37,802 bases of DNA from a virus, in the IMG/VR virus record IMGVR_UViG_3300023179_000260, positions 1 through 37,802 of that record. The stretch is one strand, 5' to 3'. The notes beneath the pieces are model-generated. The model had not been told where the DNA came from. It did no database searches and was given only the letters and a program-made list of their open reading frames with translations. The translations under genes and the position numbers were made by a program. Positions 1,360 to 30,098 of the stretch are shown one piece after another (position 1 is the stretch's first letter; every line of letters begins with the position of its first letter).

Positions 1360-3060
1360 CTACCTTCCCTTGTACCTGCTCTCCGCCTTATGTGCCTCCC
1401 ACAGTCCCTTCGCCACTTCCTTCATGCGCCCCACGATGGCGGAGAACTTGGGCGAGTGTCTCAGGAACCGGTGCCATTCTCCCGCGGTCGCATATTTGGA
1501 AGCGGCGGCGGCTGGGTTCTCCGCGAATTCTTCAAGGAATTTCTCCCTAAATCGATCATACGGCAGGCCCTCGCCCTTGGTCTCGTAAGCCTTCCGTACC
1601 ACGGCGTCAAGGTCGTTTCCTTCTGCCTCGTACATTTTCGGAGCGACGTAACGCCTGCACAGTTCTTCCACCTCCTCGTCGGAGAAGGCCCGCCCGCCGG
1701 CCACGGTCATGAACGGCTCCAGGCTGCCGAAGTGGGACTTCCATTCCCTCGCCAGTTCGTCCTTGCCGGCCACGACGCCCCTCTCCTCGTCGCTCATGAT
1801 CTTCTCGACGACCTTGCAGCGGGTCAGCTCGACCGTCGGGATGTTGTTGTTGTACCTGTCGGGTTCCACCCCCTTCACCGTCCCCTTGATCCTAACCCGA
1901 AGCCCCTCGTCGAGGCTCTCCTTGGACGCCTTCCACTTGTAGGTCTGGCCCGCGTCGTCCTTCATGACGTGCAGCGTGGTGACCCCGTAGTCCGTCGACC
2001 AGCTCCGAACCTTCTCGACCGTCAGCACGCCCTCGAACTTGTCGCCCGCCTTGAGCGTCGGGGCGGGAGGAGCCTCGGCGGGGGAGCGGCCGGGCGTGGA
2101 CGACGAAGCCCCGTTGGCCCTGTCGTACGCTGAGGGAAGGCTGGCCATCAGACCCGCAGTCCTGGCGTTGACCGTGAGGCCCTCCGCCGCGACGGACAGG
2201 TTCCAGAGGTACTGCTCGAGGTCGTCGTTTCCGGCGTCCTTCAGCGACCTGGCCCATTCTACCATCTTCTCGGCCCTCTCCCTGTCGTCGGGCCTGCGGG
2301 CGGATTCGACGTCCTCCTTGAATTTCTTCGTCTCCTTGTCCGTGGAGGCGCTGAAGAAGTAGCGCGAGACCTCGCTCGCGGTGGTGGGCTTGTTCCTCTC
2401 CTCCGATATGCGCTTGCTTACGAAGCCGAACTTCCTGATGACCGCGATGGTGGTCGCGAGGAAGTTGACCGTCTCGACCTCGTCGGACCGACGCCCGCCG
2501 CCAAGGCCGTCGAGGTCGCCCTCCATCGAGTCGGTGAGGCTCTTGAGCTCCGAGAAGTAGAGGACGTAGGCCGCGGGGTCGTCAGTTCCGAGGAAGTCAC
2601 GCAGGCAGTTAGTGCCCACCTGCTTGTACTCGCCGGCGTCGCTCTTCAGGACGAAGGTGTCCTTGCGGTTGCGGGTCGACCGGCAGTGTTCGCAGGACGG
2701 CGGGGCTGTCCTGTACTTTGTGGGTACGTCCTGGCCCGGCGAGCCCATGATCATGTTGCCGCCCTCGCCGTGAACTATGCGGGCGACGAACGTCCAGCCC
2801 TTCAGTTTCGGGGCCGCCCCGACGAGCTGCACCTGGGTCGTGGACATCTCCTGCGAGCGCCCGTCCGGGCCGGGGGTCTTCACGACCTTCCTGCCGACTA
2901 TGTCCATCGACACGGGGGGCATGCCGAGCTTGGCCGCCCTGCGGTTGAGCCTCTCCAGCTTCGCCTTCATGACGTCTAGGTCGCGGGTCAGCACCCAGTA
3001 CTTGCCGTCGACGCCCTGTTCCTGGCTCTCCTCGTTCTCCAGCCACTGCCTGAATTCCAT
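1360..3060 (-). CDS. Capsid-targeted candidate with Cys-rich and OB-fold-like regions
   Basis: This 566-residue protein begins MEFRQWLENE, matching the capsid-targeting-like leader shared by eight proteins here. The frame stays open upstream to 3144, but that stretch is a tRNA, so the ATG at 3060 is chosen. It has no ribosome-binding site; a late-promoter box ends 3 bases upstream. Visible parts are a Cys cluster (Cys123-x-x-Cys126 with Cys152, in CEHC and NCLRDFLG), charged helices at about 240-290, a Pro/Ala linker (318-336), and a beta-rich stretch at 337-420 that looks like an OB fold. Together these suggest nucleic-acid binding. Exact function is unknown. If the leader works as in T4, the protein is packed in the head, trimmed after about Glu8-10, and enters the cell with the DNA. 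Confidence 0.75.
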   Translation of the reverse strand: MEFRQWLENEESQEQGVDGKYWVLTRDLDVMKAKLERLNRRAAKLGMPPVSMDIVGRKVVKTPGPDGRSQEMSTTQVQLVGAAPKLKGWTFVARIVHGEGGNMIMGSPGQDVPTKYRTAPPSCEHCRSTRNRKDTFVLKSDAGEYKQVGTNCLRDFLGTDDPAAYVLYFSELKSLTDSMEGDLDGLGGGRRSDEVETVNFLATTIAVIRKFGFVSKRISEERNKPTTASEVSRYFFSASTDKETKKFKEDVESARRPDDRERAEKMVEWARSLKDAGNDDLEQYLWNLSVAAEGLTVNARTAGLMASLPSAYDRANGASSSTPGRSPAEAPPAPTLKAGDKFEGVLTVEKVRSWSTDYGVTTLHVMKDDAGQTYKWKASKESLDEGLRVRIKGTVKGVEPDRYNNNIPTVELTRCKVVEKIMSDEERGVVAGKDELAREWKSHFGSLEPFMTVAGGRAFSDEEVEELCRRYVAPKMYEAEGNDLDAVVRKAYETKGEGLPYDRFREKFLEEFAENPAAAASKYATAGEWHRFLRHSPKFSAIVGRMKEVAKGLWEAHKAESRYKGR

Positions 3061-3063
3061 GCA

Positions 3064-3071
3064 GTATTTAG
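3064..3071 (-). promoter_or_regulatory. Late-promoter box CTAAATAC, 3 bases before ATG
   Basis: The box matches NTANATA(C/G), a variant of the T4 late promoter TATAAATA. Only TGC separates it from the ATG at 3060, so transcription would start at or beside the start codon (leaderless). Confidence 0.55.
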
Positions 3072-3093
3072 CGACGAGCAGGGGATTTTTAAG

Positions 3094-3164
3094 AGCGGGA
3101 TGCGAGAGTTGAACTCGCCTTTCGGCCTTGGAAGGGCCGCACACAGCCGCTATGTCAATCCCGC
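3094..3164 (-). tRNA. tRNA-Gly (anticodon UCC)
   Basis: A 71-base cloverleaf folds with no mismatch in the acceptor stem (GCGGGAT with ATCCCGC). The D stem is ACAT/GTGT with a loop containing GG. The anticodon stem CGGCC/GGCCG carries the loop CTTCCAA, giving anticodon TCC. The T stem GCGAG/CTCGC carries loop TTCAACT. The variable loop is 4 bases and the discriminator base is T; no CCA is encoded. It reads GGA and probably GGG codons. It lies between two minus-strand capsid-targeted genes and may be co-transcribed with the 3194-3874 gene, then released by host RNases. Confidence 0.93.
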
Positions 3165-3193
3165 ATACTGTGAAATAGTGCCTATTTGCGAGA

Positions 3194-3874
3194 TCAAATA
3201 GTCTTCACGGCCTCAAACTTTTTAATGGCGCCATTCAAACGCTTGACCAATGAATTGTTGACCCGCCTGGTGCCGTTGTCGTCGCCCATCGTGGGCAACA
3301 TCTCGCCTATGGTCATGAATTCTTCTTGAACTATCTGCATGAAGTTTAGAAAATTCCTCTTTTGAGTTTCGCTCCCGCGCAAACCAAATACGCCCACGAA
3401 TATCTTCCACGCGGCCTCCAATGACTTGATCAGTCCCTTGTCCTCTGCTTGGTAGGCTCTAAAAAAGTCCTTGGACTTCGCCAGCACATCCTCGGGCTTG
3501 CCCGATACGACGTTCATGCCGGTCTTGAAGGGCAAAGAAGAAACTGCGTTCGCGATCTCCTGCTTGAACAATTCGTAGGCCGCCTTGTAGGCATTATTGC
3601 CTCGCTTGTCCGTGTCGCTCACGCGCCACTTGTAAGGATCAATGCCGGCTGTCTCGCGATCCAATGGGGCAAAGTTCAAACCAACGACCCACGGCTGCAT
3701 CATGCGACCTATGATCGTATTCAAATGGAACCCCCTCGTCAGTTCCCCAATCTGATCCAAGGGAGGCCTGTCAGACAACGGAAGGCTGGCGGTCATATTG
3801 ATGCCCTGGATCCGTTCGCTTTCCTTCTCGTGATCTATGTCCTTATAACTCTCCAACCAACTTTTGAAATTCAT
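3194..3874 (-). CDS. Capsid-targeted candidate of unknown function
   Basis: The product has 226 residues when started at the ATG at 3874, which gives the leader MNFKSWLESYKD; the frame is open to 3949 but the extra residues run through a late-promoter box and do not look coding. I recognise no catalytic motif. The body is mostly helical and charged, with a basic C-terminal end (LVKRLNGAIKKFEAVKTI). The stretch GLNFAPLDRETAGIDPYKW and the following helix may form a small domain. It is followed on the same strand by a tRNA and another leader-bearing gene. By its leader it is inferred to be an internal head protein processed by the prohead protease; nothing else about its role can be read. Confidence 0.75.
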   Translation of the reverse strand: MNFKSWLESYKDIDHEKESERIQGINMTASLPLSDRPPLDQIGELTRGFHLNTIIGRMMQPWVVGLNFAPLDRETAGIDPYKWRVSDTDKRGNNAYKAAYELFKQEIANAVSSLPFKTGMNVVSGKPEDVLAKSKDFFRAYQAEDKGLIKSLEAAWKIFVGVFGLRGSETQKRNFLNFMQIVQEEFMTIGEMLPTMGDDNGTRRVNNSLVKRLNGAIKKFEAVKTI

Positions 3875-3898
3875 TTTGAGCCTCGATTGTGCCGCCCT

Positions 3899-3906
3899 GT
3901 ATTTAT
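3899..3906 (-). promoter_or_regulatory. Late-promoter box ATAAATAC
   Basis: This is the closest match to T4 TATAAATA for the minus-strand gene at 3874. It lies 24 bases before the ATG, leaving a short leader with GAGG as a weak ribosome-binding site. It overlaps the last part of the upstream reading frame's intergenic edge, just before the 3922 stop. Confidence 0.55.
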
Positions 3907-3921
3907 GGGTGAAAGGCAAAT

Positions 3922-5601
3922 TTAGGAGGCTTGGACCTCGTACTCCCATCGGACTTTACCGCAGTCCCAGATTCGCGAAAGACCCCTCTCATTCGCCCAC
4001 TGCAACTCCGTCAGGTGGGAGGGGCACTGTGACTGCTTCTTGCTCTGGCTCTGCTTGCTGAATCTCCTCTTGGGGTTCTTCATGTCGACGTAGTAGTAGT
4101 CCGGGGGGAGGTCGGCCACTTTTTTGAAGCCGAGCCTATCGTAGACGCTTCCGTCACTGTATCTGTTGTCGCTCCATGACAATATTTTGTTGACCCCGTT
4201 CCCCGAGCACCAATCCGAACACGCCTTGAAGAGTTTGTTCGCGCCGCCAATGACCTGTACGCCCGGTCTGAAGCACAATCTCGTGAGGACGGCCTCCTTA
4301 GGATTCTTCTTCCTGTGGTGCCTGCCCATGTCGACCGCCCCGACCAGTTCTTCACCGTGGAAGAGCCCGAAGCACACCTCGCTGAGTTTGTTTGCCCCTT
4401 GTAGGTGATGGAGTTCACAGAACTCCTTCATCGTTTTCTTCGGAATCTCTCTGACTTCGCACTTCCTTCCCTTGAGCCTCCTGTCGAATACGCCTAGCTT
4501 AGAGAGAATAAGGCTCTTGCAGACCTCGTTCCTGTCGCGCCACTCGTCGTCGAATATGGTCAGGAGACGAATTCCCTTGTCCCGGCATCGCTTCCATTTA
4601 TCGTGGTGATAGGAACGGGTCTTGGGGCTGAATGAGTCCTCCGCGTGCCAGAATATCCCGCAGAATTCTATGGCCAATTTGGCGTCGGGGTCATATATGT
4701 CCAGTTCTCTGTTTTCTAGCACAGAAAAATCATTGTTGAATTCGTACCCAAAAGAATTCAGCCAATCTCTTATTTCATTCTGTTGCTTCAGATAAGGTCT
4801 GTTTTCTGGGAGGCACAGAGGGCTTTTAACGCCATACCTTTCCATACATGTGTCATGATACTTCTGCTTGAACGAAGGGTGTTTTGAAAAGCATTCTACG
4901 CCGTACCTCTCCAATAGCGTTTCGACCATCTTTCCTCGTATGGACTCGTTCTGGTGGGGGTGCTCAGTCCCGTACTTGGAAAGACAAGTTTCTTTTCTTT
5001 TTTCCCAATATTCTTCGGTCTGGGTAAAACTTTCCTTTCCGTATTTTTTACGGCATGTTTCCTTGTACTTTTGTTTGACCTCTTCGGATTGCATCGGCGA
5101 TTCGCATCCGTATTTGGCAAGACTTGAGGCTTTGAGTTTTTCTGCATGTTGTTTTGTCTTCGCAAAGTTCTCACAACCATAAAGCTCAAGACACTTGGCC
5201 CTCTGCTTTGCTTTTATTTCTTCATTTTTTAGTGGGCTGTCTGCGCCGTATCTCTCTAGGAGTTTCTTCTTGCGCTTTTCCTTGAAATCTTTGGATGAAA
5301 AGTAGGATTTTGACCCATACTTTTTTGAGTTAGTGTCGTTGGATTTCTCTACAAAGGCTTGGGATGTGAAATAATCTTTGGATCCGAACAGCGCAAGGCT
5401 CACCTCCTCCTTCTTCTTCAGGGTACAGGCCTTGGAGCCACAACTGTCCTTGTCGACCGTCTTATTCAACCTTGCAACGGATTTTTTGACCCTAGTGAAG
5501 ACGGTTCCACAGTAGTCGCACTGGATGTGGATTTTGGTTCTTATTGTGCAATCTTCGTAAGACCTTCCAATCAATTCCAGATTTAGGTCGTCTCTTATCA
5601 T
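3922..5601 (-). CDS. Free-standing homing endonuclease with 23-residue repeats and Vsr-like nuclease core
   Basis: The 559-residue protein has an N-terminal zinc-finger-like Cys cluster (CDYC at 28-31, Cys54, Cys59), then nine tandem repeats marked by Tyr/Phe-Gly at residues 72, 95, 118, 141, 164, 187, 210, 233 and 256, an exact 23-residue period with consensus like KEKrKeT-LekYGvespfqs-E. After it comes a nuclease core (ELDIYDPDAKLAIEFCGIFWH, then HHDKWKRC and LLTIFDDEW), typical of the Vsr/EDxHD homing endonucleases of large phages, and a C-terminal domain often found with them. The repeats probably bind DNA. No intron is visible, so it is free-standing. Its codon use is more AT-rich than its neighbours, fitting recent arrival. 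It separates the gp13-like gene from the capsid-targeted genes. Confidence 0.85.
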   Translation of the reverse strand: MIRDDLNLELIGRSYEDCTIRTKIHIQCDYCGTVFTRVKKSVARLNKTVDKDSCGSKACTLKKKEEVSLALFGSKDYFTSQAFVEKSNDTNSKKYGSKSYFSSKDFKEKRKKKLLERYGADSPLKNEEIKAKQRAKCLELYGCENFAKTKQHAEKLKASSLAKYGCESPMQSEEVKQKYKETCRKKYGKESFTQTEEYWEKRKETCLSKYGTEHPHQNESIRGKMVETLLERYGVECFSKHPSFKQKYHDTCMERYGVKSPLCLPENRPYLKQQNEIRDWLNSFGYEFNNDFSVLENRELDIYDPDAKLAIEFCGIFWHAEDSFSPKTRSYHHDKWKRCRDKGIRLLTIFDDEWRDRNEVCKSLILSKLGVFDRRLKGRKCEVREIPKKTMKEFCELHHLQGANKLSEVCFGLFHGEELVGAVDMGRHHRKKNPKEAVLTRLCFRPGVQVIGGANKLFKACSDWCSGNGVNKILSWSDNRYSDGSVYDRLGFKKVADLPPDYYYVDMKNPKRRFSKQSQSKKQSQCPSHLTELQWANERGLSRIWDCGKVRWEYEVQAS

Positions 5602-5628
5602 GCGTCAATTTTTGCCATATTCGTCCAA

Positions 5629-6522
5629 TCAGTCAAGACTAATGAACGGTAGGTCTCCAAACTTGTAGATGAGGTCTTCAAACCACTTCTGCCTGTCTTC
5701 CCTGGCTTCCTGAATAAGGGCAGATCCGTCCATCGCAACGGCCCCCTGTGCTCCTGGTACGCTTTGATATTTGCTTCTTATTCTTCCTAAAATTTCTTTT
5801 GCATATGTTAACGAACCTTCTTGAATTGCTTGTGTAACTTCTGTCCAATCTTTTTGTTTTTGCAAATAGTGAACCATCACTTTCTGTATTCTATACGGAA
5901 CAGGATACAGCTTGATGGAATTCAGCCCACCGAGGAACTCCCACCCCCCCAGTGCAGAGCTCGTTCTACTATACATCTGTTCGTACTGCCGATACTGAAC
6001 CCACTCCCCCATTTTTCCCCATATGGGGTGAACTGGGTCGATGAGTCCTCCTTGGATTGAGCTGTAGCTGCCGGAGGCGTAGAAGTATTCGATTGGTATT
6101 GCGCCTCCGAGGTCAGAGGCCTGGAAGGCGTAGTTGCCGACCTCCTTGTAGAAGACGTTCCTGACGACGCCGACCTCGGGGGGCATCTGGTAGACGCTCT
6201 GACCGGGGACGCTGTCGAACACGTAGTACTGGAAGTGTTCCCTGCCGGCGTAGTCCTCGAACACCTTCATGGCCTGGTCAACTGCGAAGTCCAAGTTCTG
6301 GGCGTCGAGCTCCAGTTTGACGACGGGGGCTCCGAGCATGTGGAGGCAGTAGTCCTTTATCTGCTCCCTGACCTTCTCCCTCTGCCTCCTGGGGCCGAGC
6401 TGGGCCTTGTTGAGGGGGTCGGCGTGTCCCAGGGCCGTGCAGGTGCTGCTGCACTGGGCGCTGGCCATGCCGCTCATGCTGGGCCTGTTGATCGCGAGGG
6501 TGTTGCTTCCGCTACATGACAT
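5629..6522 (-). CDS. 13: Neck protein, gp13-like candidate
   Basis: The product has 297 residues. After a Ser/Cys-rich N-terminus (residues 1-32) comes a helical region (REQIKDYCLHML), then GAPVVKLELDAQNLDFAVDQAMKVFEDYAG, then VPGQSVYQMPPEVGVVRNVFY. This order (helix, G-x-P-V-V-x-L-E-L, Leu-rich helix ending in a Tyr-rich stretch, PGQ-x-VY-x-(F/M)P) is the one I associate with T4 gp13 and its relatives, which join gp14 on the head portal to form the neck. T4 gp13 is of similar length (about 309 residues). The start at 6522 has a GGAGG site 7 bases away and a palindromic late-promoter box 17 bases upstream. The gp14-like gene is 8 kb away on the opposite strand, an unusual split. The assignment rests on pattern only. 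Confidence 0.6.
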   Translation of the reverse strand: MSCSGSNTLAINRPSMSGMASAQCSSTCTALGHADPLNKAQLGPRRQREKVREQIKDYCLHMLGAPVVKLELDAQNLDFAVDQAMKVFEDYAGREHFQYYVFDSVPGQSVYQMPPEVGVVRNVFYKEVGNYAFQASDLGGAIPIEYFYASGSYSSIQGGLIDPVHPIWGKMGEWVQYRQYEQMYSRTSSALGGWEFLGGLNSIKLYPVPYRIQKVMVHYLQKQKDWTEVTQAIQEGSLTYAKEILGRIRSKYQSVPGAQGAVAMDGSALIQEAREDRQKWFEDLIYKFGDLPFISLD

Positions 6523-6538
6523 AAGTGGTCCTCCGATG

Positions 6539-6546
6539 GTATATAG
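6539..6546. promoter_or_regulatory. Palindromic late-promoter box shared by divergent genes
   Basis: GTATATAG on the plus strand reads CTATATAC on the minus strand, so both directions match NTANATA. It lies between the gp13-like gene (minus) and the 6566 operon (plus), and each side has GGAGG between box and ATG. Confidence 0.5.
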
Positions 6547-6565
6547 GGCTGGAGGCTTGAACTAC

Positions 6566-6811
6566 ATGGGATCGCTCGCCCTGCTCGTGGCCGTGGTGGT
6601 GCTTTCGCTGTGGGCTTTGGCGGCGGGTTCGGTGCTGTTCAGCCTGCTGGGGTTCAGGCGCGTGGGTTTGGCGTTGGGGTTTCTGTCGGCCGCGGCGGGC
6701 GTCTGGCTCCTGTGCGCGCTCCCGCATGTTCCCCTGCTCAGCCTGATCAACATAGCGTGCGGGGTGGTCGCAATACGGCGGCATTTGTCGCAAAGGGAGG
6801 TGGAACGATGA
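6566..6811 (+). CDS. Small membrane protein
   Basis: The 81-residue product is almost entirely hydrophobic, with about three membrane spans (residues 2-24, 30-48 and 52-66) and a basic, cytosolic-type tail (IRRHLSQREVER). The ATG at 6566 is preceded by GGAGG at 6551-6555. An upstream extension of the frame would run into the divergent gp13-like gene, so it is rejected. The stop overlaps the next ATG (ATGA), so it is the first gene of a tightly coupled operon with a second membrane protein and three capsid-targeted proteins. I do not recognise the family. A role in the host membrane late in infection is possible. Confidence 0.7.
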   Translation: MGSLALLVAVVVLSLWALAAGSVLFSLLGFRRVGLALGFLSAAAGVWLLCALPHVPLLSLINIACGVVAIRRHLSQREVER

Positions 6812-9904: not shown

Positions 9905-10177
9905 ATGGAACTCAACTCCATGGAACTCGTCGGGTGGGCCGGATCATTGTTGCTCGCGTTCTGCGGGCTGCCGCAGGCCATCGAGTCGTGGAGAACGGGC
10001 TCGTCCTCGGGCGTGACTTGGGGCCTGCTGGCGATGTGGGGCGTGGGCGAGGTTCTGACGCTCGCGTACGTTATGCCCAAGATGGAGATGCCCCTTCTGT
10101 TCAACTACGCCGCCAACATCGTGTTCCTTGTTGTCATCTCATACTACAAGATTTGGCCCCGCGTCAGTCGTACCTGA
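9905..10177 (+). CDS. PQ-loop (SemiSWEET-like) membrane protein
   Basis: The 90-residue product has three hydrophobic segments and one PQ-loop repeat: GWAGSLLLAFCGLPQAIESW, followed by TGSSSGVTWGLLAMWGVGE. The Pro-Gln pair followed by a short polar turn is the mark of the SWEET/SemiSWEET and lysosomal-transporter superfamily, whose bacterial members are three-helix proteins that work as dimers to pass sugars or amino acids. A second ATG at 9920 (MELVGW) is equally possible; the first is used because a late-promoter box sits 4 bases before it. The 3' end overlaps the opposing gene by 14 bases. Such a gene is rarely noted in phages; it may alter solute flow in the infected cell. Confidence 0.75.
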   Translation: MELNSMELVGWAGSLLLAFCGLPQAIESWRTGSSSGVTWGLLAMWGVGEVLTLAYVMPKMEMPLLFNYAANIVFLVVISYYKIWPRVSRT

Positions 10178-11336: not shown

Positions 11337-12718
11337 TTTGTGGGCAGGAAACCCATACTTTTGTCGTCAAAAGTTGGCTCCGCTTCGGAGCCAACCCTTT
11401 AGGGCATGGGAGGAATGCCCACGACAGCAAAAAATAATGTTTTACCCGCTTTTCTCCTTTGTAAAAAATTAAACCATCTGCATATATACGAGTGGTATAT
11501 GAAACAGATACGAACCGTTAAAATACGACTGAAGGTTGCGAACAGTGTGTTCAAGCCGACGCTTGAAGCATACACGAACGCCTTCAACCAAGTATGCAAG
11601 ACCGCTTGGGACAACCAAGAGTTCAACGGAGTCCGTCTGCATCACCTCACCTACAAGCGTTTGAGGGAGGAAACCAAACTCAAATCCCAACTTGCGATCT
11701 CCGCAAGGGTCAAGGCAACAGAGGCTCTGTCCTCCGTCCTTGCGAGGAAGAAGAAGGGGAAGAATGTTTCCTGCCCGCAAAGCAAGTGTTGCGCCATAAG
11801 GTACGATGACCGAAGTCTGACTGTTGATTTTAAGACCAACACAGTCAACATCCTGACCATCAACGGAAGGGTCAAGATTCCGATCTCCGTACCCAAGTAT
11901 TTTGAACAGTACCTTTCCTGGAAAAGATGTTCCGCCGACCTTTTCCAGACGAAGGGAAAGACCTTCCTGCACATTGTTTTTGAGCGGGAAGTTGAGGATA
12001 TTCAGCCTTCCGGCGATTTCGTCGGAGTTGATCGTGGAATAAGGAACCTTGCTGTCACGAGCGACAACAGGTTCTTCGGCGGAAATAGGATCAAGAGATT
12101 GAGCGAAAGATATGAGAGGTTGAGAGGCGAGTTGCAAAGCAAAGGCACTCGCTCCGCAAGGACACACCTGAAGAAGATCAACAGGTGCGAACGGCTCATG
12201 CGGAAGGACATCAACCACTGTATTGCGAAGAAGATAGTTGAGGGGTTGAAACCCGGCACGACGATTGTTCTTGAGAAGTTGACCGGAATCCGTGGCGGAG
12301 CGAGGAAACTCAACGCCGAGGAAAGAAAGGAAGGCAAAAAAACCTTGAGAAAGGCACAAAGGAAGGAAGTCAACAAGTGGAACTTTTTCCAACTTGAGCA
12401 GTTTCTCGCCTACAAGGCTCTTGCAAAGGGCTGCAATGTTGAATATGTGGATGCCCGCTACACATCGCAAGGATGCAGCAAGTGCGGCCATGTCGCAAGA
12501 GGCAACAGGCAGTGCCAGTCCTTTTTCAAATGTAAAAAGTGCGGTTTTCAACTTAATGCAGACCTCAATGCTTCTCGCAATATTGTTCTCAAACATTTGG
12601 ACGCTACATGCCATCCAAACAAGGTAAATGTCAATTTGCCTAACGGCGGTTGTGAAACTGCTAATGTTCACCTTCGGGTTTGAACAAGCCCACTCGCTTT
12701 AGCGGGTGGGTAATTGAC
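11337..12718 (+). mobile_element. TnpB-only element of the IS200/IS605 type
   Basis: A TnpB gene is flanked by structured ends. The left end has a perfect 10-bp stem at 11373-11382/11386-11395 and a 6-bp stem at 11402-11407/11415-11420. The right end has a 9-bp stem at 12689-12697/12702-12710 (one T-G pair) followed by TAATTGAC, which is typical of such elements. No TnpA transposase is present, so mobility would depend on one in trans. Exact ends are estimated to within a few bases: joining the flanks restores a late-promoter box 6 bases before the ATG of the 10164-11333 gene. Confidence 0.7.
11499..12683 (+). CDS. tnpB: TnpB RNA-guided endonuclease
   Basis: The 394-residue product has the split RuvC nuclease site with Asp178 (GVDRGIRNLAV), Glu259 (IVLEKLTG) and Asp355 (NADLNASRNI), and the zinc finger between the last two (Cys326, Cys329, Cys345, Cys348). 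These are all intact, so it is probably active. TnpB cuts DNA matching a guide carried on an RNA made from the right end of its element. The frame is open upstream to 11406, but the ATG at 11499 gives the usual N-terminus (MKQIRTVKIRL). Codon use is less GC-rich than the phage genes, which suits transfer from elsewhere. The strongly biased antisense frames inside it are shadows. Confidence 0.92.
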   Translation: MKQIRTVKIRLKVANSVFKPTLEAYTNAFNQVCKTAWDNQEFNGVRLHHLTYKRLREETKLKSQLAISARVKATEALSSVLARKKKGKNVSCPQSKCCAIRYDDRSLTVDFKTNTVNILTINGRVKIPISVPKYFEQYLSWKRCSADLFQTKGKTFLHIVFEREVEDIQPSGDFVGVDRGIRNLAVTSDNRFFGGNRIKRLSERYERLRGELQSKGTRSARTHLKKINRCERLMRKDINHCIAKKIVEGLKPGTTIVLEKLTGIRGGARKLNAEERKEGKKTLRKAQRKEVNKWNFFQLEQFLAYKALAKGCNVEYVDARYTSQGCSKCGHVARGNRQCQSFFKCKKCGFQLNADLNASRNIVLKHLDATCHPNKVNVNLPNGGCETANVHLRV

Positions 12719-15136: not shown

Positions 15137-15306
15137 TCCCTATTTAACGCTCTGGACGGCTTTTCTTTCGGCCGTCCAGTCTTGTGGGCGTCCCACATGA
15201 CTACCCTCGGGAAATTGGGCTTCGGCATGGTGGTTCTCACGCCTTCGGGCACAAAAGTCTTTCGTCGTCGTTCGGAGCTCTTCTTCTTTACGCGGAAGTG
15301 CCTCAT
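15133..15306 (-). CDS. Small basic protein overlapping the following gene start
   Basis: A 57-residue frame runs from the ATG at 15306 to a TGA that overlaps the next ATG (ATGA), the same coupling seen between genes throughout the window. The product is very basic (MRHFRVKKKSSERRRK), then has PKPNFPRVVMWDAHKTGRPK. Third positions are GC-rich as in neighbours. An in-frame stop lies 24 bases upstream of the ATG, fixing the start; the ribosome-binding site is weak. A 9-bp hairpin (15152-15160/15171-15179) and a late-promoter box lie inside its 3' end. It could be a DNA-binding or head protein. A 60-codon frame overlapping it looks less likely. Confidence 0.5.
   Translation of the reverse strand: MRHFRVKKKSSERRRKTFVPEGVRTTMPKPNFPRVVMWDAHKTGRPKEKPSRALNRE
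15140..15147 (-). promoter_or_regulatory. Late-promoter box TTAAATAG, 3 bases before ATG
   Basis: GGA alone separates this box from the ATG at 15136. The AGGGA beside it is too close to the ATG to act as a ribosome-binding site. A 9-bp hairpin with a 10-base loop lies just upstream. Confidence 0.55.
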
Positions 15307-15324: not shown

Positions 15325-15332
15325 CTAGATAG
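15325..15332 (+). promoter_or_regulatory. Late-promoter box CTAGATAG for gp15
   Basis: The box lies 16 bases before the ATG at 15349, with AAAGGAG between them as the ribosome-binding site. Confidence 0.5.
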
Positions 15333-20829: not shown

Positions 20830-21366
20830 TCAATGGTGTCCGTTGGGGTCGAACATCTGTCGTCCGTTCTTGAAGGAGGAGCTTCCCTCCATGAACTGTA
20901 TGTGGTTGAGGTACTTTCTTTTAAGTTCGTTGTAGTTCCTTGCCGACCTGTACAGCTGGCGGAAGTGGTTGAGTATGCAAGTGGTCATGTAGTTGAAGGC
21001 CTTGCCCTTTCGCGAGTCGAACCTGTCGATCTTGTCGAAGCATATCATGACTCCCTCCTGTATGGCGTCGTCCGAGTCTATAAGCTGGAATTTGGCGTAT
21101 CTGACGATGTTCTCGGAGAGGGTGAAAAACGCCGTGGCCAGCTTTTGTTTTGAGTCGTCGTAGGTCGCGGAGCACTCCTTCAGGGACAGGTTCTTGAGGA
21201 TCAGGCAGTCCTCGTTGGAGGAAGAATCTATATCTCTGCTCTTCTTCCTGGCTATCGTGTCCCTGATGTCTCCTATTATCATCGCCAGGCGGTCTTGTTT
21301 TCTTTTTGACTCCTGAAACGAATTTATGAGGCGCTCCAGGGTCTTGTTATTCAGATATTCGTTCAC
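20830..21366 (-). CDS. 55: Late-transcription sigma factor gp55
   Basis: The 178-residue product matches T4 gp55 (185 residues) in size and in the sigma region 2 core: DSDDAIQEGVMICFDKIDRFDSRKGKAFNYMTTCILNHFRQLYR (residues 98-140), the part that binds the RNA polymerase clamp and melts the -10 element. Gp55 has no sigma regions 3 and 4, and neither has this protein, so it reads only a -10 type box. T4 gp55 reads TATAAATA; the NTANATA boxes throughout this window are probably this protein's targets. The start overlaps the end of the glycosyltransferase gene. Confidence 0.92.
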   Translation of the reverse strand: MNEYLNNKTLERLINSFQESKRKQDRLAMIIGDIRDTIARKKSRDIDSSSNEDCLILKNLSLKECSATYDDSKQKLATAFFTLSENIVRYAKFQLIDSDDAIQEGVMICFDKIDRFDSRKGKAFNYMTTCILNHFRQLYRSARNYNELKRKYLNHIQFMEGSSSFKNGRQMFDPNGHH

Positions 21367-23656: not shown

Positions 23657-23905
23657 TTGCCGAAGTTCAAAATTTTGGTCCGATACAGAAATCCCTCGTA
23701 CGAGGATACGGTCGAGATAGAGGCTAACAATTCCTCGGAGGCCCAGTCTGCGTGCTCTTCCATGATGGAGTCGTGGGAGGCAAGGAGGGCGGACATGGAG
23801 TCGAAGAACGTCTACCTGAGTCGTTGGGTCGAGTCATGCGATCTCGTCCCGAGAACCAGACAGCAGGAGATGGAGGCCCTCAAGTTCCTAGAAGGCGATG
23901 TCTAG
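23657..23905 (+). CDS. Small hypothetical protein, TTG start preferred
   Basis: The 82-residue product (from TTG, reading MPKFKILVRYRNPSYEDTVEI) alternates beta and helix: a strand pair, then SSEAQSACSSMMESWEARRADM, then a strand and helix, like a small alpha/beta sandwich. The GTG at 23639 would add six residues but has only AAGG 2 bases before it. The TTG has GGGAGG with 5-base spacing, so I prefer it. The 3' end overlaps the convergent gene by 18 bases. No family is recognised. Confidence 0.65.
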   Translation: MPKFKILVRYRNPSYEDTVEIEANNSSEAQSACSSMMESWEARRADMESKNVYLSRWVESCDLVPRTRQQEMEALKFLEGDV

Positions 23906-24548: not shown

Positions 24549-24867
24549 TTTCGTCCACGCCGACTATGCTTTTGGCCTCTAAGTAGTTCGCGTAAGTGGC
24601 CGACATCGTCGCCAGGTAGCTTCCCGCCATGCCGCAGGCGAACACTATCTCTGGGCGGTCGCTCACTATGAGGTACCCGCACAGGAAGCCCACCCAGGTC
24701 CCTGAGCACTGGTAGCACGAGACGAGCTTGGAGAGCCAAGGAACTCCGATCTTGTCCACGAGGTCGCGCAGCGGCTGCATTATGGTCGCGGGGTCTACTA
24801 TCATGTTGGTCAGGCCCACGGTCGCCAACGCAAAAACCACTATCCTCGACATGTCCGACATTTTCAT
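24541..24867 (-). CDS. Membrane protein with CxxC-GTWxG motif (DUF1360-like)
   Basis: The 108-residue product has hydrophobic segments at about 8-26 and 48-68 and perhaps 74-92. The motif CYQCSGTWVGFLCGY between them is that of DUF1360-type small membrane proteins found in Bacillus and in many phages. Their function is unknown. Start ATG overlaps the stop of the previous gene; a second ATG two codons on is also possible. Confidence 0.72.
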   Translation of the reverse strand: MKMSDMSRIVVFALATVGLTNMIVDPATIMQPLRDLVDKIGVPWLSKLVSCYQCSGTWVGFLCGYLIVSDRPEIVFACGMAGSYLATMSATYANYLEAKSIVGVDENG

Positions 24868-25244
24868 CTCCAGAAGGTCAAATACAGAGCGTTGCCCTTG
24901 CGGTACGAACCCATCCCCGAAAACCTCGACATTTCCTCCATGTCTGGGGGGCAGTCGATTTCGAAGTGCGTGTTGAGGACGCAGTTCCTACCGACCTTAT
25001 CGATAGTAACTTCTCTGCCGAAGTGGGCAGAAAGGACTTTCTCGACCTCCTGGTCGGCGGAGTCTAGGAAGTCAAGGATGGCGGCTCGTCCCGTGGGCCG
25101 CAGGTCGGGGCTTATCTTGCTTACAGACCACTGGTCCCGGAAACGCCTCATATGGGGCATTTTCCTCCACGCGACGGGGTCCTCGAACACCAAGGCCTCG
25201 ACGTTCTTGACCCCGATCCTGATGGGCTCGCTGTGTTTTTCCAT
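24864..25244 (-). CDS. Hypothetical protein, first gene of a four-gene run
   Basis: The 126-residue product has an alpha/beta look with IRIGVKNVEALVFEDPVAWRKMP, a mid helix (ILDFLDSADQEVEKVLSAHF) and TIDKVGRNCVLNTHFEIDCPPDMEEMSRF near the end. No known motif is seen. It is the first gene of the minus-strand run 25244-23888, all overlapping. No ribosome-binding site is visible before the ATG, and the gap to the divergent gp26-like gene (25245-25349) holds no clear late box. Confidence 0.65.
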   Translation of the reverse strand: MEKHSEPIRIGVKNVEALVFEDPVAWRKMPHMRRFRDQWSVSKISPDLRPTGRAAILDFLDSADQEVEKVLSAHFGREVTIDKVGRNCVLNTHFEIDCPPDMEEMSRFSGMGSYRKGNALYLTFWR

Positions 25245-25349
25245 GAGAATAGTTTTGGGCTTGCGCCACTAATGTAGTTGATAGACCGCCGGTTAGGACG
25301 AAGTCCCCCGTCGGACGTCACACACCAACCAGATAAAGAGAGGGACAAA

Positions 25350-26447
25350 ATGGCCGAAGACTCGTTCAGACCACAGAAGAGGCAGATATCGCAGGATGAG
25401 ATTTCGCAGGATTCGTCCGCAGAGGGGGCCACGGAGCAGCTCGAGGCCATGGCGGCCATGAGGAGAAGGGCCTCCGAAGAGATCAACGAGGACTTCCAGG
25501 AGCCGCAGGGCGAGCTGGCACAGCGGGTCAAGGGCAACGTTCCGGAGGTCTTCAAGAGGGCCGCCCGCAACCAGTCGGCCGCGCCGGCTCCGCAGAAGAA
25601 CCAGGACATGAGGGTCACGGGGAGCGGCAAGCTCGAGGAGCTCATCGCGGGAATCGGTACGCGTGGCAACATGGTCTTCGAAAAGATAGAGCTGCCCTCC
25701 AAGGGCAAGTTCTACAACGGCGAGGACGGGCCGACGGACGGGGTGATCCACATCAGGCCCATGACGGGCGAGGAGGAGGAGATTCTCGCCACTCCGAGGT
25801 TCGTCAAGAAGGGCCAGGCAATCAACATGATCTTCAACCGATGCATGAGGGAGAGCTACGACTCGGCCAACTTCCTCACCCAAGACCGAACCTACATGCT
25901 GATCTACCTGCGGGGCATATCGTACACCCCGGAGTACGACGTCGAGGTGAGGGACCCCGAGACCGACCAGACATTCGCGACGACGATCAACCTCAACGAC
26001 CTGTTCGTGGACTACTGCAGGTCGGACTTCGGGGCAGAAAACCTGGAGGACGTGTTGCCGGTCACGGGGTACCGTTTTAGGTACCGCCTTGCGGTCGGCA
26101 AGGACGAGCAGTTGATACAGGACTACCGCGAGCGTCGGGCCAAGAACTTCGACCTTTCGGGACAGGCGGACGACACCCTGCTCTACCGCACGGCTCACCT
26201 GATAGAGGAGATAGAGGGGCTCGGCGACAAGAGCGAGATTCAGACCCTCCTGAAGAAGCTTCCCATTCAGGACGTGGCCTACCTGAGGACGGTGGTGAAC
26301 GAGCCTCCGTTCGGGGTGGACACGAAGATTTCCATCACGAACCCCTATAGCCTGCGGGACTTCGAGATCGAGCTGCCGCTAGAGTCGAATTTTTTCTTCC
26401 CTCGGGCAAAGAAAAAGGCGACGGCGGTATCGAAGACGCAAGTCTAG
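25350..26447 (+). CDS. 26: gp26-like baseplate hub / tail assembly protein
   Basis: The 365-residue product (start ATG at 25350 after AGAGAGGGAC; the open frame upstream is not coding-like) has an N-terminal charged region, then FEKIELPSKGKFYNGEDGP and HIRPMTGEEEEILATP, then INMIFNRCMRESYDSANFLTQDRTYMLIYLRGISY. This order is that of the T4 baseplate family including gp26 and gp51: LPSKG-(K/L)-Y, RPMTG-(E)-E, LL-DR-x-x-L-x-x-LR-x-SY. These proteins help assemble the baseplate hub and tape measure. The 3' end carries the run AAAGAAAAAG and a reading frame in -1 continues for 70 codons past it, so a longer frameshift product is likely. Confidence 0.8.
   Translation: MAEDSFRPQKRQISQDEISQDSSAEGATEQLEAMAAMRRRASEEINEDFQEPQGELAQRVKGNVPEVFKRAARNQSAAPAPQKNQDMRVTGSGKLEELIAGIGTRGNMVFEKIELPSKGKFYNGEDGPTDGVIHIRPMTGEEEEILATPRFVKKGQAINMIFNRCMRESYDSANFLTQDRTYMLIYLRGISYTPEYDVEVRDPETDQTFATTINLNDLFVDYCRSDFGAENLEDVLPVTGYRFRYRLAVGKDEQLIQDYRERRAKNFDLSGQADDTLLYRTAHLIEEIEGLGDKSEIQTLLKKLPIQDVAYLRTVVNEPPFGVDTKISITNPYSLRDFEIELPLESNFFFPRAKKKATAVSKTQV
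26408..26417 (+). promoter_or_regulatory. Candidate -1 frameshift site AAAGAAAAAG
   Basis: Within the last 14 codons of the gp26-like gene, the in-frame codons AAG AAA AAG follow an A, giving two A-AAG tetramers and a G-AAA-AAG heptamer. The -1 frame is open from 26402 to 26629 and contains the small 54-codon frame. Confidence 0.55.
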
Positions 26448-26464
26448 AGCTCTGGGATGGGCTC

Positions 26465-26629
26465 ATGGAGGAGATGTTCTTCTTCATGTACCACATGCGC
26501 CAGAGCAGGGACAACTTCCTGTCTTTGCCCATAAACGAGAGAAAGTGGATGATAGACCGCTTCATCAAGCAGAAGGAACGAGAGAGCGAAGCCATGGAAT
26601 CGGCCAAGAAGAAGGCCAAGAGGAGGTAG
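26465..26629 (+). CDS. Tail assembly chaperone extension, made by -1 frameshift or separate start
   Basis: A 54-codon frame reads MEEMFFFMYHMRQSRDNFLS and then LPINERKWMIDRFIKQKERE, with a very basic C-terminus (SAKKKAKRR). A Met/Phe-rich helix, LP-x-x-x-R-x-W-(M/L)-I-(D)-R-(F/Y) and a charged tail is the form I associate with the downstream partner of tail assembly chaperones. The ATG at 26465 has no ribosome-binding site, and the frame continues openly upstream into the gp26-like gene, so fusion by -1 frameshift at 26408-26417 is the likelier route. Its stop lies 1 base before the TTG start of the next gene. Confidence 0.65.
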   Translation: MEEMFFFMYHMRQSRDNFLSLPINERKWMIDRFIKQKERESEAMESAKKKAKRR

Positions 26630-26630
26630 T

Positions 26631-27380
26631 TTGGCGATCAAGGAAAGACACCAGAACCCGGTTGTGGGCGACGAGGTGAGCCTGCGGCTGTTCACCTACA
26701 ACTCGAACCAGAGGCAGGCCGTGGAGTCCGTGGACAAAGTGTCCATATACCATCTCGACAAAACGTCGGCCACGGAGGACAACCCGGAGGGGCGAAGGCT
26801 CGTGCTGGAGGTCGCGCCCGAAGACATAGAGGAGGTCGAGGACCCGTTCGGGGGGCACTACCGAGTGGCGGTGTCCCTCGAGTCCGAATTGTTCCTGGTG
26901 GGCACCTACCTCGATGTCTGGGACGTCAGGTTCAGCGAGAACCAGTCGGGCACCGTGACCAACCAGTTCGTGGTGCTCTCGGAGCTGTGGTACGCGTCCG
27001 ACATGCCCGTCGTGTACGACTTCTCGTACGGGTTTCGGCCGAACAGGGTCAGGAAGGGCGAGCGTAGGTGGCTCACCGTGGAGGTCGTGCCCAATGTCCC
27101 GAGAGCCTCCGACATGGACCGTTACTACATGAACTTGGCGGTCGCCAGCCCCATCACGGTGTCGATAGAGAAAGCCTGCGGGGATTGTGTCCCGAAGGAG
27201 AGAGACCTCAGGATGATCGTGGAGGGCGCCCCGGTCGAGTACCGCAGGGACTCTGAGGCGTACTTCTTCCTGGACACCGTGGAACTCGGGATGGACTGCG
27301 GAATCTACAACGTGTGGTTCGAGCTCCAGTTTGGCGAGAACAAATTTATCTCGGAAAACCTGCAGCTCCAGATATACTGA
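26631..27380 (+). CDS. Virion structural candidate
   Basis: The 249-residue product starts at TTG 26631 (AGGAGG 4 bases upstream). It is mostly beta-strand in character (VGDEVSLRLFTYN, YRVAVSLESELFLVGTYLDVWDVRF, FVVLSELWY, WLTVEVVP) and has acidic loops, with Cys at CGDCVP and CGIYNVWFELQFG. The shape suggests immunoglobulin-like or other beta-sandwich domains typical of baseplate or head decoration proteins. It follows the gp26-like gene and precedes a terminator, so it is the last gene of that late unit. No family named. Confidence 0.7.
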   Translation: MAIKERHQNPVVGDEVSLRLFTYNSNQRQAVESVDKVSIYHLDKTSATEDNPEGRRLVLEVAPEDIEEVEDPFGGHYRVAVSLESELFLVGTYLDVWDVRFSENQSGTVTNQFVVLSELWYASDMPVVYDFSYGFRPNRVRKGERRWLTVEVVPNVPRASDMDRYYMNLAVASPITVSIEKACGDCVPKERDLRMIVEGAPVEYRRDSEAYFFLDTVELGMDCGIYNVWFELQFGENKFISENLQLQIY

Positions 27381-27437
27381 TGCGGTGGAAGCGGGCACCG
27401 GCCTTGGGCCGTGCCCGAAGGGGGAGGTGTGTCGGCG

Positions 27438-27468
27438 GGAGGGGGAGGGGAGACCCTCCCCCTCCTTT
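27438..27468 (+). terminator. Rho-independent-like terminator
   Basis: A perfect 12-bp stem of G and A paired with C and T (27438-27449 with 27454-27465) and a GAGA loop is followed by only TTT. It lies 58 bases after the 26631-27380 gene and just before a sigma70-type promoter, marking a transcription boundary. Confidence 0.8.
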
Positions 27469-27504
27469 GACGCATTCCTCGAAGATTCCGACGCGGGAAA
27501 TTTG

Positions 27505-27532
27505 TTGACGATCGGGCTTTCCGGCGTATAAC
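27505..27532 (+). promoter_or_regulatory. Sigma70-type promoter for the 27578-29153 cassette
   Basis: TTGACG (27505-27510) and TATAAC (27527-27532) are 16 bases apart, 5 of 6 matches in each hexamer. This is the best host-type promoter in the window and lies 45 bases before the ATG at 27578. It suggests early expression of the downstream three genes. Confidence 0.7.
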
Positions 27533-27577
27533 CTCATGTAGTCGCATGTGGGATTGCAAAACGCAAGGAAAAGAACT

Positions 27578-28204
27578 ATGGCATCGCCAGAGACCGTCCA
27601 GCTGATTTTCGAGAGTTCCATCCGAAGGTCGGAGAAGAAGATCACCAACCCGACCAAGGCACTAATGGTGAACGTCCTCGCCGAAGCGGGATTCGAAGGC
27701 GTGTGGGAGCTGAAGGACTCGCGCAGGATCAAGAAGAAGGGTAGGGAACGCTTCGGAGCCATCCGGCTGGAGTCCCGTGCCGGTGCTCAGAGCATCCGCG
27801 TGTGGTGCAAGCCGAGGGGGAACGACACGGCGTTCGAATATTCGCTGATCCCGCCCGCGGGGACGGACCTGCAGATGGCATTTGCGGTACTGAAGCGGGT
27901 GAGCCCCATCACTCTACGAGTAGCCGAATCGCCCGTGCTCCCATTGGCGGTGAAGGCGAGAGTTCTACTGGACGCCCCACCTCTTCCGCCTTTGCAGAGG
28001 GAGGAGCAATTCTTCGAGGTGGCCGACGACCCGACTGCCGTGCCAGCGAAAGACGCTGAATCCGCGGAGGTGGAGGGGCTTCCGAAGAGCGAGGAGCCGG
28101 AGGCGAGAATGGTCGCAGAATCGCCGAAGACGCCAGATTTCGAACGAATGGAACTCAAGGGCACCGAGATTCTTCCGACCAGTCCGCAATGGACAGAGCA
28201 CTAA
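27578..28204 (+). CDS. Hypothetical early protein with basic N-terminal half
   Basis: The 208-residue product begins at ATG 27578 (AAGGA upstream). The first 110 residues are basic and helical (FESSIRRSEKKITNPTKALMVNVLAEAG, DSRRIKKKGRERFGAIRLES), perhaps with a strand region (SIRVWCKPRGNDTAFEYSLIPP). The second half is acidic and Pro/Glu-rich, low in structure. The next gene overlaps by 16 bases. It could bind nucleic acid. No family is recognised. Confidence 0.7.
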   Translation: MASPETVQLIFESSIRRSEKKITNPTKALMVNVLAEAGFEGVWELKDSRRIKKKGRERFGAIRLESRAGAQSIRVWCKPRGNDTAFEYSLIPPAGTDLQMAFAVLKRVSPITLRVAESPVLPLAVKARVLLDAPPLPPLQREEQFFEVADDPTAVPAKDAESAEVEGLPKSEEPEARMVAESPKTPDFERMELKGTEILPTSPQWTEH

Positions 28205-28941
28205 TGGCGATCGGGTTCGTGGCGGAGTTCGGTTACGCGAAGAAGACGGAGGCCTCGTCCAGCATCATAAGGAACCTCGGGATGAAGAGGTTCGTCTCCG
28301 GAATGAGCCCGACCTACACCTCGATCGAAGGGGCGATGCGTGCGCTAACCATGGCCCTCAGGAAGAAGGGCAGGTACATCGAGAGGATCAGGTGCGACCC
28401 GCAGGGCGGGAAAGGCGTCAGCGACGGCGTCAGGGGCTACAAGCTGACCCCGGCGGGGGAGCTCAGGCTGGAGTCGGTAAAGGGCAAGTTCGGCCCAGAG
28501 GCAGAGGCCCGCCTGAACCCGCTGTGGCGTCGTGGGTCTCCCCAGCCGAGCCGGCAGGAGACCGTTCCGCCCATGGTCGCGGCAGAGGCGGGGGCCTCCG
28601 TGTCCCCCGTTTCGATCGGCCGCCTCAAGGACCTACTGGCCTCCTACGAGGAGTCCCAGCGGCAGGTGGAGGAGATCGACGGCCTGCTCGGCCAGATGGA
28701 GGACGACATGAAGAACCTGCGACTCGACATAGAGGCTCTGGAGCTCGCGGAGCGGGAGAAGATGCGCCAGATCGAATCAATCAAGGAGGAGGCCGAGCGG
28801 ATAGCCTCCAAAAAGGCCGAGGCCCAGAGGAAGCTCGCCCAGAAGGAGTCCGAGCGAAAGGAGTGGGAAGACTTGAAGAACCCGCACCAGAAAGAGAAGG
28901 ACAGGATCGGTTCGATGCTCTCCGTTCTGGAGGGGCGGTGA
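28189..28941 (+). CDS. Protein with winged-helix-like N-terminus and long coiled coil
   Basis: The 250-residue product has an N-terminal region (about 1-95) with SIEGAMRALTMALRKKGRYIERIRCDP and GVRGYKLTPAGELRLESV that looks like a winged-helix DNA-binding domain. A Pro-rich linker follows (about 120-145). Then a continuous coiled coil of Glu, Lys and Arg runs from about 150 to 235 (QVEEIDGLLGQMEDDMKNLRLD through RKLAQKESERKEWEDL). It is likely dimeric. With its early-type promoter it may be a regulator of host or early genes. The stop overlaps the next ATG. Confidence 0.72.
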   Translation: MDRALMAIGFVAEFGYAKKTEASSSIIRNLGMKRFVSGMSPTYTSIEGAMRALTMALRKKGRYIERIRCDPQGGKGVSDGVRGYKLTPAGELRLESVKGKFGPEAEARLNPLWRRGSPQPSRQETVPPMVAAEAGASVSPVSIGRLKDLLASYEESQRQVEEIDGLLGQMEDDMKNLRLDIEALELAEREKMRQIESIKEEAERIASKKAEAQRKLAQKESERKEWEDLKNPHQKEKDRIGSMLSVLEGR

Positions 28942-29153
28942 TGGTGATAGTCCCCGTGAGGCTGGTCGGCAGGAAGGGCGGCGGCGTGCTGTGCCGGCTC
29001 GGAAGCGAGCCCCTTCAGGACGCCCCCGTGGAGTTCCTGTCGCCCGAGTGCGTCGAGAGGATCGTCGAATCGGAAGGGTCGGACCTGGCCGTCGTGGTTC
29101 TTAACCCGAACCGGGTGCCGGATTCGATCAAGGGGCGCTTGGGGCTGGGCTGA
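28941..29153 (+). CDS. Small hypothetical protein
   Basis: The 70-residue product reads MVIVPVRLVGRKGGGVLCRLG, then ECVERIVESEGSDLAVVVLNPNRVPDSIKG. It has the alternating strands of a small beta-barrel or SH3-like protein. It overlaps the previous gene by its start (ATGA) and the opposing nuclease gene by 26 bases at its end. Nothing more can be said about its role. Confidence 0.65.
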   Translation: MVIVPVRLVGRKGGGVLCRLGSEPLQDAPVEFLSPECVERIVESEGSDLAVVVLNPNRVPDSIKGRLGLG

Positions 29154-29697
29154 AGAAGAAGTCGTCCTCAAGGGAGACTAGGTCCTCCATGGATATCGCC
29201 GTCCACTGGCCGTAGCGGAGCATGCAGGGGAACTCCCTGCCTTTGAGGTCGGAGGACTTGAGGAAGGCGAGCCTCGGCTTCCTGTCCTTCTTCCACAGGA
29301 GGAGTGGCATCCTGCCGCACCTCGCGGAGTCGTCGCTGACCTGCTTTAGGAAGGAATCGAGCTCGGCCTGCCCGCCCGAGAAGACGGTGCACAGGTCGAT
29401 GTCGTTGTACCCGCCCTTGCTCTCCAGGACGAACAGGAAGCCCTCCGGACACACGATGTCGCCCGAGTAGGTGTCGGAGGCGGCCTTGGACAGGTGAACC
29501 CTTTGCCCCCAGCGGGTTCCACTTCCCACAGACCTGCTGAAGGACCCGCACCCTGGGCGCCCAGCGATGGCCTCCCTGAACCTTTCGTTGAGCCTCTTTA
29601 TAAGGTCAAGCTCGACCCTCTTGCCCTTTCGGCCAGACTTTATCTTCTTGGGCTTGCTCTTGAGAATGTCCTCTATTTCCGAATCTTCTTCTTCCAC
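29128..29697 (-). CDS. PD-(D/E)XK Holliday junction resolvase-like nuclease
   Basis: The 189-residue product has KGKRVELDLIKRLNERF with Glu29, then SFSRSVGSGTRWGQ, then YSGDIVCPEGFLFVLESKGGY with Asp80 and Glu92-x-Lys94. This is the layout of RecU-like and other phage resolvases, where the FSRS-x-GSG stretch also is typical. It would cut recombination junctions before packaging. The start is GTG at 29697, unusual because a late box ends 5 bases before it and no ribosome-binding site is present. Overlaps the 28941-29153 gene by 26 bases tail to tail. Confidence 0.75.
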   Translation of the reverse strand: MEEEDSEIEDILKSKPKKIKSGRKGKRVELDLIKRLNERFREAIAGRPGCGSFSRSVGSGTRWGQRVHLSKAASDTYSGDIVCPEGFLFVLESKGGYNDIDLCTVFSGGQAELDSFLKQVSDDSARCGRMPLLLWKKDRKPRLAFLKSSDLKGREFPCMLRYGQWTAISMEDLVSLEDDFFFSPAPSAP

Positions 29698-29702
29698 AAA
29701 GT

Positions 29703-29710
29703 GTATGTAG
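29703..29710 (-). promoter_or_regulatory. Late-promoter box CTACATAC, 5 bases before GTG
   Basis: Identical to the box before the PQ-loop gene. ACTTT alone lies between it and the GTG start of the nuclease at 29697. Confidence 0.5.
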
Positions 29711-29741
29711 TGCGGAAGAAAAAATTACCAAAAAACAAAGG

Positions 29742-30098
29742 CTATTGCTCTTCCGATGCGAGCGAGTTCGTGGGTTTATCCTGATTGCCCGCCATGGCCT
29801 CCATGTGGGCTTGGCAGGCCTTCAAGACGCCCGAGAGGTCGTCCTTCTCCTCTATTGCCCTCATAATGGCCACACCGCATTTCTGGAGGGTCTTTAGACC
29901 CGGCTCCTCCCTTTGGGGCCAGTGGGTGTGAACGACCCTCCTGATCTGATTTACGATGCCTTGGGCGTTCGACACGAGGTGCCTTGTACCCATGTCGCCC
30001 GCGCTGTCGTTGAGGTCCTGGAGGGCCTCCAGGATGCCTGAGACCCTTTGTGCGAAGTACTGGTCGGTCTCGGCCAATATGAAGTCCTTGAATTCCAT
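29742..30098 (-). CDS. Capsid-targeted candidate, small helical protein
   Basis: The 118-residue product starts at ATG 30098 with MEFKDFILAETD, a close match to the capsid-targeting-like leader (cleavage likely after Glu10). The frame is open to 30455 but that part lies inside the next gene. The body is helical (VSGILEALQDLNDSAG, GIVNQIRRVVHTHW, LKTLQKCGVAIMRAIEE, VLKACQAHMEAMAG) and ends in a polar tail. A late-promoter box lies 4 bases upstream with no ribosome-binding site. It could be an internal head protein like T4 IP proteins. Function otherwise unknown. Confidence 0.72.
   Translation of the reverse strand: MEFKDFILAETDQYFAQRVSGILEALQDLNDSAGDMGTRHLVSNAQGIVNQIRRVVHTHWPQREEPGLKTLQKCGVAIMRAIEEKDDLSGVLKACQAHMEAMAGNQDKPTNSLASEEQ

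Follow-up and report, generated by a model that had tools for sequence, protein, structure and literature searches.

The 37,802-nt IMG/VR virus record IMGVR_UViG_3300023179_000260 (the window, analysed over its full 37.8 kb) is a fragment of a contractile-tailed, T4-related phage in which eight proteins with bodies unrelated to one another begin with a common leader of about ten residues (Table 1; genes are named by the position of their start codon). We put at roughly four in five the probability that this leader is a T4-type capsid-targeting sequence (CTS) and that the genes bearing it make up an expanded T4-type packaging system, a reading drawn from sequence comparison and well supported by the geometry of the T4 internal-protein (IP) leaders, a protease site at the leader end, the gp21, gp22 and gp23 genes of relatives and an invariant Glu-Ala pair in the 7832 family. 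A first-pass annotation of this DNA had already likened the eight starts to the T4 leader and their bodies to injected effectors. Each of the eight starts is an ATG that opens a reading frame and encodes the N-terminus given in that annotation, 8/8 frames were kept by codon-trained gene calling, and the bodies are as unrelated as it had claimed.

Distribution of the leader

The leader has the form M-x(1-2)-F-x-E-[WF]-L-x(1-2)-E, and clustering of the proteins of the window and seven relatives placed it on 56 unrelated families with the consensus F-[K/S/R]-[E/D]-W-L-x-x-E-E/S (one example is MEFKDFILAETDQ). As a simple pattern it lies near the start of 68 of 882 genes (7.7%), compared with 15 of 4042 internal methionines (0.37%). 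A profile built from the 56 independent families and applied at a threshold of 9 bits picks exactly the eight genes among the 51 of the window and 6-21 genes in each of the seven relatives, with pass rates for internal methionines of 0-2 per 1000 across all genomes examined. Passes number 0-3 in T4, S-PM2, P-SSM2, KVP40, phiW-14, CP39, SPO1 and NCTB, an undercount in the case of T4, where the leaders of IPI, IPII and IPIII are known and visible. LR756511, a 595-kb genome outside the training set, has 42 genes that pass, falling into 42 separate and mutually unrelated families, versus 0 of 2012 internal methionines. Finally, a DNA-only search of IMG/VR that combined leader codons with the upstream box described below returned 11 loci, all of them opening reading frames, on contigs of up to 459 kb. 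The suggestion that the leader had spread to many proteins, for which a profile search of related genomes had been proposed as a check, thus holds far beyond the original eight. Copying of the leader as DNA between unrelated genes was seen in one clear neighbour pair (61973/63130 in relative G002, 23 identical bases), and since this pair is the only one, recombination is not claimed as the mechanism.

For each of the eight genes, the recovered orthologs carry the leader. In the case of 30098 it is kept, together with its hydrophobic-x-Glu end, in every ortholog recovered, down to 32% identity. Ortholog rows flagged as leader-less mostly proved on reading to have variant leaders, and one locus was cut at its end; the flagged 8704 row in G002 was a partial C-terminal match, the G002 gene call itself carrying the leader. 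Gene 3060 has a body of a type widespread among phages, related to a Tunturi_5 protein annotated as RecT-like and single-stranded DNA annealing, and the homologs from Aeh1, Zuko, Tunturi_5 and RpAliso lack the leader at their start, which makes the leader an add-on. Searches of viral contigs yielded no deeper families for 8704, 11333, 15136 or 7218.

The predicted cleavage site and the head module

T4 internal proteins are diverse and have only their CTS conserved (PMC3012670, PMC5694885, PMC9391042). Read directly, T4 IPII and IPIII start MKTYQEFIAEA and share with the present leaders the spacing F/Y-x-E-[FW]-[LI]-x-E. The terminal [LIVM]-x-E, a likely prohead protease site, is found at the leader end in 29 of the 56 families as compared with a slid-window mean of 2.3 (maximum 5), and none of 2000 shuffles reached 29 (shuffle maximum 24); in LR756511 the same triplet ends 15 of 41 leaders against a control value of 1.5. 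The proposal that the window leaders are cut after Glu fits the three with a clean [LI]-x-E, namely 7832 (LRE/A), 11333 (LAE/S) and 30098 (LAE/T), and does not fit 3874, 7218, 8704 and 15136, which have no such end; 3060 has only ENE. Glu10-Ala11 is invariant among the orthologs of 7832, including that of the Stenotrophomonas jumbo phage CM1, whose leader otherwise differs and which encodes an S77 protease.

Relatives G002, G003 and G008 as well as LR756511 encode the cognate head module, comprising an S77 protease (gp21), a gp22-like coiled-coil scaffold and gp23 in the order known from T4, and the gp23 proteins of relatives carry sites such as RLINE/SST and RLMNE/AST.

A late-type box at the start codon

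A TA[ATG]ATA box starting at -12 to -9 precedes 35 of 94 leader genes (37%) versus 36 of 986 others (3.7%; Fisher 2.6e-21), and a Shine-Dalgarno sequence accompanies 4 of 71 boxed genes versus 509 of 1009 unboxed ones. LR756511 shows the same association (24 of 42 leader genes, 42 of 982 others). The box position was not enriched in T4, S-PM2, P-SSM2, KVP40, phiW-14, CP39, SPO1, NCTB or LR756508, and its placement at the start codons of leader genes is the new element here. Because the box abuts the ATG, almost always without a Shine-Dalgarno sequence, the arrangement suggests a T4-type late promoter giving rise to leaderless late mRNA, and the T4 gp55-type late sigma factor encoded in the window is a candidate reader of the boxes.

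Together these data leave very little room for the view that the leaders look alike by chance, as amphipathic N-termini of low information content that arose by convergence. The peptide is short, and a few chance fits do occur, such as the SET-domain gene at 30846 (MKEFAPFLDE) and a set of PrkA-like genes starting MSFSEYL, but the internal-methionine, shuffle and slid-window controls contradict this explanation, as do the retention of the leader in orthologs and its independent association with the -11 box. Neither of the two chance fits was accepted as a leader. The SET-domain gene matches the loose pattern, misses the profile threshold and enters its SET domain from residue 21, and the start of the PrkA-like genes belongs to a conserved 669-aa protein of four relatives.

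Nature of the cargo

The first-pass annotation had seen an arsenal of injected effectors whose folds included an ADP-ribosyltransferase, a HEXXH protease, a transglutaminase-like protein and a Cys cluster with an OB-like fold. The first of these fared best. In 7832, H20, Y64 and E241 are invariant in six sequences, one of them at 31% identity, and the protein is most likely an ADP-ribosyltransferase-type enzyme of KptA/PARP-like character, its profile matches being weak (PTS_2-RNA, E=0.007, below the cut-off; PDB 6e3a, E=0.0038). A second ADP-ribosyltransferase may be encoded by 7218 on the strength of motif elements (CWRGF, YHGF in G003; GMLWFT; YA); its match to SseI in PDB (E=0.66) was not significant. 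The protease and transglutaminase assignments are weaker, consisting of motifs and sub-threshold matches: 8704 is a putative metallopeptidase for which no family-level support was found beyond the HEXXH motif (DUF6782, E=0.019, below the cut-off; no PDB match), and 11333 has C81, H138 and D149 invariant in three orthologs, with Pfam matches to transglutaminase and YunG that fall below the cut-off. The leader of 11333 matches phrog_535 and phrog_2280. Structures predicted for 7218 and 11333 from four and three sequences, respectively, were too poor to use (predicted local distance difference test scores of 59 and 56), and their fold matches are meaningless. The Cys cluster of 3060 does correspond to a Zn/OB-type protein, albeit one found in other phages without the leader.

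Leader proteins of two further kinds were noted outside the window. At L134:9921-10670 (G007) the residues ELYHGSN come after the leader and give an otherwise unrelated body, which has no Pfam match, an ADP-ribosyltransferase-like start. On distant contigs (L279, L283, G002:132875, G007:81533, LR756511:580680) the leader is fused to bodies that are related to one another and share an HD-domain-like HHPEG..H motif.

Tagged proteins in relatives include an SF2 helicase, a UvrD-like helicase, a DnaJ protein and a DUF5872 protein. Since helicases and a DnaJ protein are tagged, the cargo is not purely one of host-takeover enzymes, and the notion of an effector arsenal is partly supported, in that effectors, with 7832 as the one ADP-ribosyltransferase-type fold, would form one part of a mixed cargo that also takes in a protein as widespread outside the leader system as 3060. 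It is conceivable, if rather unlikely, that the proteins are packaged chiefly to build the head or organise its DNA, and not as effectors for the next host. Several are small, Pro/Gly-rich or coiled (G004 46787 and the gene at the right end of the window), and the 30098 family is kept across the lineage, but most bodies are patchy and lineage-specific, several are enzymes, and the internal proteins of T4 and P1 act after injection (PMC3012670, PMC9024508).

A number of points weigh against the CTS reading itself. A tag serving some other phage complex could likewise account for the helicases and the DnaJ protein, and the leader could dock proteins to the phage replication/repair machine (sliding clamp, single-stranded DNA-binding protein, replisome) with no relation to capsids. 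Clamp-binding motifs are usually short aromatic-acidic-hydrophobic peptides, and the Zn/OB protein of single-stranded DNA type would suit such docking as well. We consider this explanation improbable, as the leader is near-identical to those of T4 internal proteins, its protease-type [LIVM]-x-E end is enriched more than tenfold and is the most conserved part of the 7832 family, and late-type boxes stand at leader genes. Further reservations about capsid targeting concern the material. About half of the leaders, including four in the window, have no clean cleavage site. The profile was trained on a pattern-selected set; the acidic positions, cut site and box lie outside the selecting pattern. 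The gene calls are our own. The 37.8-kb fragment does not reach a head module, so that the gp21 of the window's own phage is deduced from relatives. Packaging, cleavage and injection are extrapolated from T4 and P1 DarB, whose CTS has been described (PMC9024508).

The phage and other features of the window

The window also encodes a head-tail adaptor, a tail-sheath stabilizer, the sheath and nrdA, along with genes that we take, from our own reading of their sequences, to be gp46/47-like and nrdB. Its sheath matches many uncultured relatives at 56-95% identity, and its best matches in public phage records stand at about 27-38%. G002 and LR756511, an uncultured phage, have major capsid proteins that are 79% identical; very large genomes therefore belong to this lineage, and the window probably covers a small fraction of such a genome. 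Genes 7832 and 8704 each overlap the preceding gene by ATGA. The G001 homolog of the ninth leader gene, which is cut by the window end, starts MITFHQFLVSEA / MITFHQFLVSEAGPP.

Table 1. Leader genes, late-type boxes and late sigma factor of the window (a slash in a leader marks the predicted cut).
Feature	Positions	Strand	Description
Leader gene 3060, 566 aa	1360..3060	-	MEFRQWLENEE + Zn-cluster/OB-like body (phrog_2319)
Leader gene 3874, 226 aa	3194..3874	-	MNFKSWLESY; body without assigned function
Leader gene 7218, 205 aa	7218..7835	+	MKFREFLDYD + body with ADP-ribosyltransferase-like motif
Leader gene 7832, 291 aa	7832..8707	+	MKFSEWILRE/A + probable KptA/PARP-like ADP-ribosyltransferase-type body
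Leader gene 8704, 395 aa	8704..9891	+	MNFRKWLETV + body with HEWAH (HEXXH) motif
Leader gene 11333, 389 aa	10164..11333	-	MKNFAEWLAE/S + transglutaminase/YunG-like body
Leader gene 15136, 139 aa	14717..15136	-	MRFSQWMESK + small body with Cys/His
Leader gene 30098, 118 aa	29742..30098	-	MEFKDFILAE/T + small body
Ninth leader gene, C-terminal part	37578..37802	-	Gly/Pro-rich; cut by right window end
Proximal box TAAATA	3065..3070	-	-10 of gene 3060 (CTAAATACTGC-ATG); no Shine-Dalgarno
Proximal box TAAATA	15141..15146	-	-10 of gene 15136 (TTAAATAGGGA-ATG)
Proximal box TAGATA	30104..30109	-	-11 of gene 30098 (CTAGATAGGCGC-ATG)
TAGATA	15326..15331	+	Upstream of AGGAGA Shine-Dalgarno before tail-sheath stabilizer gene 15349; conventional spacing
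Late sigma factor, T4 gp55 type	20830..21366	-	phrog_234; sigma-70 region 2

Leader gene 3060 is immediately preceded on its own strand by a tRNA-Gly(TCC) at 3093-3164. A PQ-loop membrane protein, SemiSWEET-like by eye, is encoded at 9905-10177 adjoining the leader-gene operon, and its G001 and G002 copies carry a proximal TATATA box of their own. The window further contains a TnpB/Cas12f-like gene (IS605 OrfB) at 11499-12683 with no obvious partner transposase, and an intein-like insertion within the reductase barrel domain of nrdA at 31318-33399 (Intein_splicing, E=0.0005, below the cut-off). The SET-domain protein occupies 30463-30846 (E=2.5e-13), is not counted among the leader genes, as noted above, and is kept in relatives G001, G002 and G006. 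The genes of about 669 aa with an MSFSEY start, PrkA-like (serine kinase) by eye, are kept in the lineage (G002:139296, G004:111236, G006:10611, G007:90461). At L096 (G002):4475-5599, an AAA+ ATPase (GDPGTGKST, BCS1-like by eye) adjoins a leader gene and the head module; phage BCS1 proteins have been speculated to translocate folded proteins into heads (PMC7824862).

Proposed mechanism and comparison with known systems

Under the CTS reading, tagged proteins would be made late in infection, often from a late-type box that abuts the ATG and would yield a leaderless mRNA. The N-terminal F-x-E-W-L peptide would dock each protein in the prohead core, in leaders that have an [LIVM]-x-E site a gp21-type protease would cut the peptide off behind it, and the body would remain in the head beside the DNA and enter the next cell with it. 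Late expression, packaging, cleavage and injection, like the protective or takeover roles of the bodies, are in each case predicted from sequence. An open reading frame might become cargo by the addition of a short upstream box and about ten codons; if these suffice, recruitment of unrelated proteins would have happened over and over, with about 40 of them per genome in the 595-kb relative. We give even odds to the stronger proposal that a portable module of about 45 bp (the late box on the ATG plus about ten CTS codons) loads each virion type of huge T4-related phages with some 40 or more distinct proteins, which would amount to a one-signal protein-delivery system with a reach like that of a bacterial secretion system and its effectors.

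Should this be so, the leader would be a signal, readable from sequence, that lists the proteins carried into hosts by large uncultured T4-related phages: dozens per genome, nearly all without assigned function and likely rich in anti-defence or takeover activities. It would also offer phages an uncomplicated evolutionary path to new cargo, and leaderless late transcription of cargo would be unusual among T4-type phages. No description of the leader expansion was found in the open-access literature, the scope searched.

The closest known counterpart is the CTS of T4 IPI, IPII and IPIII (Mullaney and Black; PMC3012670, PMC5694885), which likewise spans about ten N-terminal residues, spaces its aromatic, acidic and hydrophobic positions as the present leaders do, ends in a Glu protease site that about half of the present leaders match, is the only part common to unrelated bodies, and belongs to a gp21/gp22/gp23 head module such as the relatives encode. 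The present leaders differ in having mostly W-L instead of F-I and, in many, the cut Glu one residue further; they are also found on 8-42 genes per genome or fragment versus a handful in T4, on larger enzyme bodies, and with a late-type box abutting the ATG. T4 Alt resembles 7832 in being a head-packaged ADP-ribosyltransferase whose short N-terminus has a Glu-site end (MELITELFDE), but the KptA/PARP-like 7832 would belong to another family of these enzymes and its leader sequence differs. P1 uses an N-terminal signal to bring a large enzyme, DarB, into its head, from which it is delivered together with the DNA (PMC9024508); the Dar proteins have no N-terminal consensus, whereas here one consensus is common to dozens of proteins. 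Giant phages of the SPN3US/phiKZ type similarly have many head proteins trimmed by the prohead protease and then ejected (PMC5694885), but their propeptides mostly exceed 100 residues and share no common short tag.

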